64,000 nt of DNA from Candidatus Methanoplasma termitum (GTDB lineage: Archaea; Thermoplasmatota; Thermoplasmata; Methanomassiliicoccales; Methanomethylophilaceae), in contig NZ_CP010070.1 of NCBI RefSeq assembly GCF_000800805.1, positions 806,001 through 870,000 of the forward strand, written 5' to 3'. Within the stretch, counting starts at the first letter, position 1. Each line of letters begins with the position of its first letter. The position numbers and the translations under genes are program-made. The notes below the pieces were generated by a model. The model was not told where the DNA came from and searched no databases. It saw only the letters and a list, made by a program, of their open reading frames with translations. Positions 34,483-39,676 of this stretch are shown here, piece after piece.

Positions 34483-35805
34483 TCACTCACATATTTCGGT
34501 GATCCTGCCGATCCAATCGTCTGTCGACAGGGCATGCTGATACATGTATGTCCCTATCGAATTCCTGCATATCATCCCGTCTTTGTTCCCCACTATACCG
34601 CCGCCCCTTAAGATGTCAAACCCGAACTCACACCCCGACCCGGGTCGGACCGTGGAGTAATGAAATTCATGACCTTTTATCGTACCGTCGAAGAGTCTGC
34701 ATTTTCCATTTGAACCTGCGACCACATATGACGGACCGTGTCTTTTCCCCGCGACATCGGCTTCCGCATCGAATATACCGGCCGCCTTGTATGTCATGCC
34801 TTCGGAAACTATCGACGAACACATGGTGAGCATCCCCCCGCACTCCCCGATCATTACCTTGTTATCTTCGCATGCGGTTCTCAGCCCTTGAAAGAAATCC
34901 CGATTCTCAGATAAGGTCTCCAGATGCAGCTCCGGATATCCTCCTCCGAGATAATATATGTCCGCATCGGGGAGCATATCTCCGTTAAGAGGGCTGAAAT
35001 TCTTTATCTTTATGCCGGATGCCATCATACATTCGATATTCTCTTTGTAATAAAAACAAAAAGCGTCATCGACAGGCACCGCTGCGGTAAGGCCGGTGTC
35101 CCTCTTCACATAGAGATCGTCAACATCGTTCGTTTCCGGGCCGTAACATATCTCGACCAGCTGATCCAGATCCAATTCTTCGACCATGCGCTCCATGCTG
35201 TCAAGAGTATTTTTATCCGATGATCTGTCTTTGCTCAACCCGAGATGCCTTTCCGGTATCGCACGGTCGGCATCCCTTCTGACCATCCCCAGCACATTTA
35301 TGCCTATTTCCTCCATCGCATCCTTCAATTTATTCTCATGTTGATCTCCCGAGATGTTGTTTATTATCACTCCGGCTATGTCTATCTCCTTATCATACGA
35401 CATAAAGCCTTTGACGATCGCCGCGGCGCTCCTGGTGAGGGACCTTGCATTGACCACAAGTACTACCGGGAACCCAAGTAATTTTGCCAATTCTGCGGTC
35501 GACCCCGAATCATCCTTCCCCGACCTCCCCTCATATAGTCCACGCACCCCTTCTACAATGGAAATGTCCGCCCCCTTTGATCCATGAACTGCGACCTTTT
35601 TCACAACATCCTTCGGCATCATGAATGAATCCAAGTTCCTGGAGCATCTTCCCGTGGCGGACCTGTGGTACATCGTGTCGATAAAATCGGGACCCACTTT
35701 GAAACCCTGCACCCTCATGCTTTTGGACAGTTTACTCATCAGCCCGGTGGAGATGGAGGTCTTTCCGACACCTGATCCCGTGCCGGCGATAACCACTCCT
35801 TTCAT
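34483..35805 (-). CDS. cfbB: CfbB, Ni-sirohydrochlorin a,c-diamide synthase
   Basis: CfbB amidates the a and c side chains of Ni-sirohydrochlorin with glutamine and ATP, the second step of F430 synthesis. The protein (440 aa) has a dethiobiotin-synthetase-like ATPase (AGTGSGVGKTS, then EGVRGLYEG) and a C-terminal class I glutamine amidotransferase with the catalytic Cys in MIGECGGML. Homology is to cobyrinate a,c-diamide synthase; the operon context decides for F430. It is last in cfbC-A-E-D-B and its ATG overlaps the cfbD stop. No in-frame TAG. Confidence 0.93.
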   Translation of the reverse strand: MKGVVIAGTGSGVGKTSISTGLMSKLSKSMRVQGFKVGPDFIDTMYHRSATGRCSRNLDSFMMPKDVVKKVAVHGSKGADISIVEGVRGLYEGRSGKDDSGSTAELAKLLGFPVVLVVNARSLTRSAAAIVKGFMSYDKEIDIAGVIINNISGDQHENKLKDAMEEIGINVLGMVRRDADRAIPERHLGLSKDRSSDKNTLDSMERMVEELDLDQLVEICYGPETNDVDDLYVKRDTGLTAAVPVDDAFCFYYKENIECMMASGIKIKNFSPLNGDMLPDADIYYLGGGYPELHLETLSENRDFFQGLRTACEDNKVMIGECGGMLTMCSSIVSEGMTYKAAGIFDAEADVAGKRHGPSYVVAGSNGKCRLFDGTIKGHEFHYSTVRPGSGCEFGFDILRGGGIVGNKDGMICRNSIGTYMYQHALSTDDWIGRITEICE

Positions 35806-36875
35806 GCTATCTCCTTCAGCAACTCTCTTATGGTGTCCCCGGTCTCGGTGTGTACTATGTTCCTTACGTTCATGACCATCGCATGAGAAGATATCTCTCC
35901 TACCGCATCATATCCTTTTGAAAGATAATTGGACAACTGTCTGGGCTGATCCGTTATCAATATCTGCCCTTTTTTTTCAAGATGGGGATATGCATGAGGT
36001 ATTCCGGCTATGACCAGCAGATCGGGACGGAATCCGTCGACCTTTTCTTTAAGAACATTTCCGATCACGGCATATTCGTCCAGCCCGCCTGCGATATCCA
36101 CTGATATTCCCTTATCGGTCAGCTCGGACAGGATGTCCGAAGCGTATCCTCTGATCTTCGGAAGCCCCTTTTGAGGGTCCAGATTGGCTATGTATCTGGT
36201 CTTCCCTCCCAATTTCCTATTTGCTTCGTCCACTGCCAGGAACACATCCGCAAACCTGTATGCAAGCTCTTTCTTTGACACCGAGACCACTGCCAGCCTG
36301 CCGTTGTCTGTGAGACAATCAATGATCTTTTTTGCTACACCTATTTTAGTCGGGCCGTTAGAGGGCGGAAGGTAATCAACGGAAGCCGTGCCTCTTTCCT
36401 TTTCCATCTTTGTGGCCATCGATAAAAGATACTTCTGACGGTCAGCTTCTCCAATCGAGATCATGCCGGCTTTGGCCGATGCGTCGACGGCCCTTATTGC
36501 TCCTGCGGTGTTGTCGCCCATACAGCCGTGGCAGTCGACGAATATCGTCTTGTATCTTACGCCAGACCTCTTTATGGATGTTTCCATGTCCTCACCTATG
36601 ATCATACTGGAACATGTCCCTATGACCGCCACGGTCCTGGGGCAGAACATTCTTTCTACCTCTTTTAGCACAGCCACCAGTTTTTCGGATGCCCCGAATA
36701 TCAGATCGTTCTCGTCCATAGCGGATGTCACGACCCTTATTCCCGTATCCTCTATCATCCTCGATACCATGAACCCACATCCTGCGGGCCCGTGTATCAC
36801 CACTGCATCCACACCTATGTCCCTGAGCATGTAAATTGCCGCTATTATCGGATTCGGCCTCGGATGTATGCTCAT
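35802..36875 (-). CDS. cfbD: CfbD, NifD-like component of the F430 reductive cyclase
   Basis: CfbD is the catalytic partner of the NifH-like CfbC. Together they reduce and cyclise Ni-sirohydrochlorin a,c-diamide to 15,17-seco-F430-seco-acid, a nitrogenase-like six-electron reaction. The 357-aa protein has the expected cysteine segments (HGPAGCGFM, GTCSSMIIG, DCHGCMGD) for the [4Fe-4S] site. The ATG and stop overlap cfbE and cfbB as ATGA. The reading frame is intact with no TAG. Start ATG at 36875 gives MSIHPRPNPIIAA, the conserved N terminus. Confidence 0.93.
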   Translation of the reverse strand: MSIHPRPNPIIAAIYMLRDIGVDAVVIHGPAGCGFMVSRMIEDTGIRVVTSAMDENDLIFGASEKLVAVLKEVERMFCPRTVAVIGTCSSMIIGEDMETSIKRSGVRYKTIFVDCHGCMGDNTAGAIRAVDASAKAGMISIGEADRQKYLLSMATKMEKERGTASVDYLPPSNGPTKIGVAKKIIDCLTDNGRLAVVSVSKKELAYRFADVFLAVDEANRKLGGKTRYIANLDPQKGLPKIRGYASDILSELTDKGISVDIAGGLDEYAVIGNVLKEKVDGFRPDLLVIAGIPHAYPHLEKKGQILITDQPRQLSNYLSKGYDAVGEISSHAMVMNVRNIVHTETGDTIRELLKEIA

Positions 36876-38065
36876 TGGTATCCCTCTTTGATGATCCTGA
36901 GAATGACTCTTTTTTCTTTCGGCGTGTCTGCGCCGTCATCAAGGCAGAACTCCGCACCTTTATCCTCGACCATTTCCTTTATTTCCCGCACATCCATTTT
37001 TTCACAGACATTACGGCTCATGGGTTCCAACATCACTATTGTGTCTTTCAGCAGTCCCATATACCCCAAAATATCCAGGGTCTTCGCGACCGACATCCTG
37101 GATATCCCCGGATTCCTTTCCGTTATCTCCCACCCGATCTCTGTGCGCTTGACCTCTCCTCTTCCCGGGACACCGTTGAATGTCTCCAGGCCTCTTATCG
37201 CCTGCTCAGCCGGGACCCTCAACTCATAGCAGGCCTCCAGCACCGCTTCGATCGTGTCGAGATACTGCAGGTGTAGGTAACTTCCATGCAGGAACAGCTC
37301 ATGCTCACCATCATAGTTTACCTTTATTTTGGTGGGTTTACCGATCTCCGGCCCGCTTACGACGCTTACTCTGCCTCCGAAATATATCAGGCCGTCCCGA
37401 TATTTGCTCCATATGTGTGATTCAGATCTTGGGACGATGTTCTTTCCGTCCGAAAAAATAGAGGCCTTGGCGTCCGAGGCCTTCCTGGTGTTCGCTGCTA
37501 TCCGATAATCTTCGGCAAGGTTCGTTATTATCGCCATCTCGGCCTTCCCGCTGCCTCCGAGTGATACTTCTGCTATCACCGCATCATGACCTTTCGGAAG
37601 CTTCAGCAGCGATGTGGGTGCTATGCTGACCCTCTTCTCGATCGTGTGTGTCCCGCCTTTCCACTCCCCTTGGCCTCTGGAAGTGTGGAGGAATATACTT
37701 CTGCCGTCTATCGAAAGTATGTGTGCCAGAAGGTAGCAGCAGCTTGTCTTTCCTTTCACTCCCGTGACTTCGATCCTCGATCCTCCGTCGATGAATCCGC
37801 CTACCGCTTCATGGAATGTTCTTCTTTCATCATATGTCACATCATTCAGGAACATGTCAGGACAGTGTACCGGCATCAGTAGGAGATCGAAATGACCTTT
37901 CGGCATTTTATCGTGTACTGATATCCCGTACTCCCTGAGGTCGGACATTATGTCCTCTTTTGCTTTGCCGTAGACATCTACACAATCAACGGAGCATCCT
38001 CTTTTCGAATATTCCTGAGCCAATATCTCTCCGCCGTGCACTATATCCAAAATGAGAATGTTCAT
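36872..38065 (-). CDS. cfbE: CfbE, Mur-ligase-like coenzyme F430 synthetase
   Basis: CfbE closes the last ring of F430 by ATP-dependent activation of a carboxylate. The 397-aa protein resembles a MurC/D-type ligase: the ATP loop reads GVKGKTSCCYLL, followed by the central domain and a C-terminal domain beginning near FNGVPGRGEV. I choose the ATG at 38065, which overlaps the cfbA stop as ATGA; an in-frame codon three positions earlier is less likely. No in-frame TAG. Confidence 0.92.
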   Translation of the reverse strand: MNILILDIVHGGEILAQEYSKRGCSVDCVDVYGKAKEDIMSDLREYGISVHDKMPKGHFDLLLMPVHCPDMFLNDVTYDERRTFHEAVGGFIDGGSRIEVTGVKGKTSCCYLLAHILSIDGRSIFLHTSRGQGEWKGGTHTIEKRVSIAPTSLLKLPKGHDAVIAEVSLGGSGKAEMAIITNLAEDYRIAANTRKASDAKASIFSDGKNIVPRSESHIWSKYRDGLIYFGGRVSVVSGPEIGKPTKIKVNYDGEHELFLHGSYLHLQYLDTIEAVLEACYELRVPAEQAIRGLETFNGVPGRGEVKRTEIGWEITERNPGISRMSVAKTLDILGYMGLLKDTIVMLEPMSRNVCEKMDVREIKEMVEDKGAEFCLDDGADTPKEKRVILRIIKEGYQ

Positions 38066-38847
38066 GCCTGCCACCGGCCCATGATCTTCTCTGCGATCAC
38101 GTCTGTAAGTCTTGGATCGCTGCCTATCGGCGCTGCGTACCTTACGGTTATACTTCGGCCGTCGTGAACAAGCGAGTCCTCAGATATCCAGTCGGCAAGA
38201 CGTATCTTCTTTGGAATATCGTTTTTGAGGTGCGCCCCCAGTGAAATGAACAGAGGCAGCACTATTATCTCGTCCACATCTTGCGATATCATCTCGTTAA
38301 ATACGGATTCGACTGTCGGCTCATCGAATTCGTTGAATGCACACCTCACATTCTCATACCCCATTTTAGTCAATTGATCCGCTTGGAAAGTAACGGTCTC
38401 TTTATTGTACGGCAGCCTGGAACCGTGCCCTACAACCATTATCATCCTGCTGCCTTTACCTGAGGTCAGTTCATCTATCCTTTCGGAAAGTATCGTTGCC
38501 AAAAGCGGATCGTTCCCAAATGGCTACCAGAGTTCTATGAAAATGTTTTTGCCTTTCTTTTTTACAGAGGCTTTGTTCGCGCCGTGAGGCATGCCCAGTT
38601 TTTCAGGGATGTCCCGCATGATATGCAGTCCGCAGGCGATGAAGAACGGGATCGCAACGACATGGTCGATACCATCTTTGACCATATCCTCAAGGACGTC
38701 CTCCACAAGCGGATATGTTGTCTCGTTGAATCCTATGTAGACATTCCTGAATCCTTTTCCTTCAAGCCTTTTCTTCTGCTCTTCCATGACCCATTTATTG
38801 TAGTTATATCTGGATCCGTGGCCGATTATCATTATTCCTTTTTTCAT
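38062..38847 (-). CDS. cfbA: CfbA, tandem sirohydrochlorin nickelochelatase with one in-frame amber codon
   Basis: CfbA inserts Ni2+ into sirohydrochlorin, the first F430 step. The usual enzyme is a homodimer of a roughly 130-aa CbiX-type domain; here two domains are fused in one 261-codon frame. Each domain has both catalytic histidines (IGHGSRYNYN with GLHIMRDIP; VGHGSRLPYN with GAHLKNDIP). Codon 108 (38524-38526) is TAG. The flanks IFIELW-TAG-PFGNDPLL align without a gap to ITVRYA-A-PIGSDPRL of the second domain, so the amber lies inside the fold. The start ATG (38847) lies one base after the cfbC TGA, and the TGA stop overlaps cfbE. Pyrrolysine at codon 108 is the simplest reading. Confidence 0.9.
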
Positions 38848-38848
38848 A

Positions 38849-39676
<828 letters not shown>

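Follow-up and report, generated by a model that had tools for sequence, protein, structure and literature searches.

Three in-frame TAG codons in the coenzyme F430 genes cfbA and cfbC of Candidatus Methanoplasma termitum are probably decoded as pyrrolysine

The adjacent genes cfbA and cfbC of Candidatus Methanoplasma termitum are interrupted by three in-frame TAG codons (codon 108 of cfbA and codons 68 and 204 of cfbC) and by no other lesion. Their best explanation, which we regard as very likely on the strength of the genome sequence, is that pyrrolysine (Pyl)-tRNA reads all three, so that full-length CfbA and CfbC would be made. The initial annotation had already taken TAG as a sense codon here, and that reading is well supported, although only a little by the internal repeat and stop-type arguments offered for it, and not by the restart argument; it is supported mainly because the genome has a pyl cassette and avoids TAG as a terminator, because of the orthologues in sister species and because cfbC has two TAG codons.

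RESULTS

The cfb operon and its TAG codons

The window analysed is a stretch of 64,000 nucleotides (positions 806001–870000 of the 1,488,669-base single-contig genome). On its minus strand it carries, in order, cfbC, cfbA, cfbE, cfbD and a cfbB-like gene, the gene set that produces coenzyme F430, the cofactor of methyl-coenzyme M reductase. The features are as follows.

38849..39658, minus strand: cfbC, NifH-like ATPase subunit of Ni-sirohydrochlorin a,c-diamide reductive cyclase, 269 amino acids with two TAG codons read through
39455..39457, minus strand: cfbC codon 68, in-frame TAG; orthologues mostly have Asp/Glu
39047..39049, minus strand: cfbC codon 204, in-frame TAG; the most variable column in the aligned protein
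38062..38847, minus strand: cfbA, two-domain sirohydrochlorin nickelochelatase, 261 amino acids with one TAG read through (NCBIfam F430_CfbA, Pfam CbiX twice, translation)
38524..38526, minus strand: cfbA codon 108, in-frame TAG in the context CTCTGG TAG CCATTT; column variable across 37 orthologues, all of which lack TAG at this site
38437..38445, minus strand: cfbA codons 135 and 137, in-frame ATG at the start of domain 2, a possible restart
36872..38065, minus strand: cfbE, coenzyme F430 synthase (NCBIfam F430_CfbE 298 bits, cut-off 250); its ATG overlaps the cfbA TGA (ATGA)
35802..36875, minus strand: cfbD, reductive cyclase catalytic subunit (TIGR03282 376 bits, cut-off 268); ATGA overlap with cfbE
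34483..35805, minus strand: cfbB-like a,c-diamide synthase (NCBIfam cobB 431 bits, above cut-off); ATGA overlap with cfbD

The cfbB-like gene scores 467 bits with the NCBIfam model F430_CfbB, below its cut-off of 560. The cfbC/cfbA junction reads TGATATG and the three other junctions are ATGA overlaps, which suggests coupled translation; as the genes overlap or almost touch, termination at a TAG should harm the downstream genes too. Besides cfbA and cfbC, no gene in the window has a credible internal TAG. The count given in the initial annotation, three ambers in two neighbouring genes with no other stop type, is thus correct, and this stop-type pattern does count for something. The accompanying claim that random decay was excluded went too far: given the codons present, the probability that three of three nonsense mutations are TAG is 0.04–0.10 depending on the transition bias, which is marginal when taken alone.

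CfbA: fold and position of codon 108

As had been described, cfbA is a minus-strand frame of 261 codons, open to its TGA except for the one TAG at codon 108. Both halves of the protein fall within the NCBIfam equivalog family F430_CfbA, at 225 bits against a cut-off of 120, and this score, the invariant active-site histidines in each domain (H10/H75 in domain 1 and H141/H206 in domain 2) and the cfb neighbours identify it as a CfbA. The AlphaFold model (mean pLDDT 93) consists of two equal domains offset by 131 residues, which agrees with the internal repeat proposed earlier, and codon 108 pairs without a gap with Ala239. Each of these positions directly follows a strand (100–106 and 231–237) and precedes the last helix (114–127 and 245–260), so termination at codon 108 would cost domain 1 that helix. 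As a two-domain chelatase the model is closest to SirB, and each half resembles single-domain CfbA. The use of the repeat as a built-in control is valid but weak, since column 108 is variable across orthologues and an Ala in domain 2 therefore says little about what the position needs.

The statement that the second half of cfbA has only a TTG start is wrong, as ATG codons stand right at the beginning of domain 2 (codons 135 and 137); the argument against a restart consequently fails, and a separately made domain 2 had to be weighed. In addition, the genome encodes a second CfbA, intact and single-domain (sampled stretch L032:4132-4515, minus strand; 131 bits with F430_CfbA, cut-off 120), inside a hemB-hemL-hemC-cobA-hemD cluster. 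Its presence weakens any argument from essentiality that uses cfbA alone, and cfbA alone does not force read-through. In the same cluster, hemC (L032:6269-6321, minus strand, genome position about 739.3 kb) has an apparent frameshift at a TTTT run immediately ahead of PGQGAIAIA, which is either real or a sequencing error.

CfbC: family and paralogues

The cfbC product matches Pfam Fer4_NifH (284 bits), and its best NCBIfam match is F430_CfbC at 308 bits, below the 402-bit cut-off for membership; its identity is assigned from its NifH family and its gene neighbourhood (cfbA/E/D/B). In CfbC, residue 68 lies in a short helix and residue 204 in a strand. As TAG68 sits between the P-loop (9–16) and cysteines 91 and 127, the expected cluster holders, no CfbC fragment could function. 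The gene is the only free-standing CfbC copy in the genome, the only other close NifH domain being joined to NifD within a distinct nitrogenase-like pair. This pair (L088:1416-4861, plus strand, genome position about 362–365 kb) comprises the NifH-NifD fusion of 726 amino acids followed by a NifK/BchB-like protein, and many genomes of Methanomassiliicoccales have long frames that include a NifH domain like this one. With the only other close NifH domain of the genome fused to NifD and its own fragments useless, cfbC argues for read-through better than cfbA does, with the caveat that the NifH-NifD fusion scores above cfbC on the CfbC model (334 versus 308 bits).

Orthologues and conservation of the TAG sites

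The nearest relatives of cfbA come from metagenome-assembled genomes of the order Methanomassiliicoccales, most of them named Candidatus Methanoplasma. Most same-genus genomes have a two-domain CfbA (seven orthologues at 67–72% identity and one at 58%), and cfbC adjoins cfbA in same-genus genomes (six at 71–77%). The comparison with sister species that had been called for earlier has two sides: the reading frame is conserved past codon 108, but the TAG itself is shared by no orthologue. Among 37 CfbA and 33 CfbC relatives none has TAG at CfbA 108, CfbC 68 or CfbC 204. Conservation therefore does not extend to the codon, and the same-genus orthologues have sense codons at all three sites. Orthologues have Q, T, E, D, R, M, P or G at CfbA 108 and nearly any residue at CfbC 204; some relatives carry CAG at CfbA 108 and GAG at CfbC 68, a single step from TAG. 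A TAG in the single-domain cfbA of genus g10 was considered as a shared site and rejected, being an ordinary terminator after the last residue.

Conservation continues across every TAG. Identity to the genus is 0.71 for CfbA codons 109–133 (against 0.70 and 0.71 on either side) and 0.76, 0.77 and 0.67 for the CfbC blocks split by the TAG codons. None of the 44 near-invariant CfbA columns is altered, and three of 103 are in CfbC, all conservatively. Distances to outgroups are not elevated, and those to the genus are slightly above those of other members (CfbA 0.297 versus about 0.27; CfbC 0.264 versus about 0.22). Both genes thus show homology to a single family on both sides of each TAG, as is looked for in Pyl-containing proteins, and neither shows the conservation of TAG in orthologues that would mark a catalytic Pyl. 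Because the sites accept many residues, Pyl is most likely without a catalytic function in CfbA or CfbC. In variability, the three sites rank at 0.32, at 0.62 and at the very top among columns reachable by one mutation; restricted in this way, site variability is only marginal as a proof of tolerance and we discarded it as such.

Pyrrolysine machinery and use of TAG

The genome appears equipped to decode TAG as pyrrolysine. The genes pylD, pylC, pylB and pylS lie in a row at 598–612 kb, pylS and pylC identified by model (PylS_Cterm 269 bits, cut-off 178; a PylRS without the N-terminal domain) and pylB and pylD from their location and by reading their sequences. Beside pylS we spotted by eye a sequence resembling a tRNA, with CCTCTAAAGC, a CUA anticodon and an encoded CCA; ARAGORN made no call for this CTCTAAAGC sequence and a plain fold did not give the cloverleaf. 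In the same region mtmB carries a single in-frame TAG, located where this gene usually has it, and our searches returned no match to the MttB family. A ramA-like gene (genome position 609693-611306; L044:11694-13310, plus strand) follows a GGTGAT site and has TAG as codon 2 (ATG TAG TAT), where relatives carry Arg, Thr or Gly. This start would be useless without TAG decoding, and with it the second residue of the protein would be Pyl.

TAG usage was surveyed in 400 kb of evenly spaced genome stretches, or 464 kb with the window. In the 464 kb TAG terminates three of 224 genes, a rarity similar to the 1.6% reported for Ca. M. alvus, which Borrel et al. tie to constitutive, efficient decoding (PMC4153887). 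The 400-kb sample held one further internal-TAG gene with coding signal on both sides, a DUF1266 protein (L085:14292-15158, plus strand) with one in-frame TAG, which is another likely Pyl protein. TAG is therefore rare in this genome both as a terminator and as a sense codon. Read-through of TAA and TGA was unusable as a control for this census, as these are common terminators and neighbouring genes fuse.

Under the explanation that we favour, Pyl-tRNA(CUA) would decode TAG to yield CfbA with Pyl108 and CfbC with Pyl68 and Pyl204, ribosomes would terminate at the TGA ending each gene, and the TAG codons would have become fixed because an efficiently suppressed amber should be almost neutral in this cell.

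Alternative explanations

For cfbA, but not for cfbC, independent synthesis of domain 2 is a genuine competing explanation. Translation would stop at TAG108 and restart at ATG135 or ATG137, which stand exactly at the domain 2 start with AAAGG a few bases upstream, giving a stand-alone domain of about 127 amino acids while the N-terminal fragment is discarded. That is the size of a normal single-domain archaeal CfbA, a working homodimer; domain 2 on its own matches the F430_CfbA model over its full length, the single-domain structures 6m2a and 8i55 match one half of our model, and natural single-domain CfbAs exist in Methanomassiliicoccales and in this same genome. Yet codons 109–133, which would go untranslated, are conserved like the remainder, the GGTG sites present before cfbA and cfbE are absent before ATG135, the two cfbC TAG codons are left unexplained and TAG would have to terminate translation although the cell has the means to decode it; we consider this unlikely. 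Seen from a single genome, cfbA and cfbC may also have been inactivated recently, with F430 made by the hem-cluster CfbA, which passes the CfbA model at 131 bits versus 120, and by the NifH domain of the NifH-NifD fusion at 362 kb, which outscores cfbC on the CfbC model. Such pseudogenes would have to lack any frameshift, TAA or TGA, retain the P-loop, cysteines and histidines and remain conserved on every side of each TAG, in an otherwise intact operon of coupled layout; moreover, relatives retain both a free cfbC and the long NifH-containing fusion, so that the two are not obviously interchangeable, and we judge this account improbable.

The TAG codons could also serve as a control, the output of the F430 operon being gated by the level of Pyl-tRNA so that the cell would produce the cofactor only while its pyl/methylamine system is running. 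Their clustering (three of the four internal TAG codons in 464 kb fall within about 1 kb) and the coupled-looking gene starts fit such gating, to which we give little credence. The odds of the clustering were rejected as a test, being post hoc in a window picked for its TAG codons. Sequencing or assembly errors are very improbable: errors may occur in this genome, as the apparent hemC frameshift indicates, but here three independent substitutions to one codon within 1.6 kb, without an indel, would be needed, and the 400-kb sample produced only one other internal-TAG gene.

DISCUSSION

In the MtmB, MtbB and MttB methyltransferases the TAG codon is a conserved feature and Pyl takes part in catalysis. 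The same machinery that reads TAG as Pyl in these enzymes is proposed to do so for cfbA and cfbC, whose sites, in contrast, are variable and common to no relative. An archaeal code in which TAG generally stands for Pyl has reportedly been argued for in recent work. As for the protein itself, CfbA shares its fold and active-site histidines with the CfbA/SirB/CbiX chelatases (PDB 6m2a, 8i55 and 5zt7) and its two-domain layout with SirB; it differs in being an archaeal two-domain form whose first domain contains a TAG.

Additional Pyl proteins have already been predicted for Methanomassiliicoccales. The parts of the published accounts available to us list 16 predicted Pyl proteins beyond the methylamine methyltransferases in Ca. 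M. alvus (PMC4153887) and, in ISO4-H5, 46 genes with an in-frame amber, methyltransferases included, one being a predicted nitrogenase gene (PMC5011839). As far as these accounts go, the present genome resembles both in its order, its pyl cassette and the occurrence of TAG in genes with TAG-less homologues, core genes included, and it shares with Ca. M. alvus the low use of TAG as a terminator. The genes cfbA and cfbC are a further case, and the pathway is the addition: three TAG codons in two adjacent genes of one essential cofactor pathway set this genome apart from those accounts, in the parts of which we have seen neither gene is named. Our literature search, whose coverage is incomplete at gene level, found no paper treating pyrrolysine and CfbA together.

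If the TAG codons are decoded, automatic annotation would call the F430 genes broken in a methanogen that needs them, and F430 synthesis, and hence methane formation from any substrate, would need pyrrolysine. Borrel et al. suggested that essentiality of the pyl cassette could arise via other genes (PMC4153887), and with decoding in cfbA and cfbC the cassette would be essential beyond the use of methylamines.
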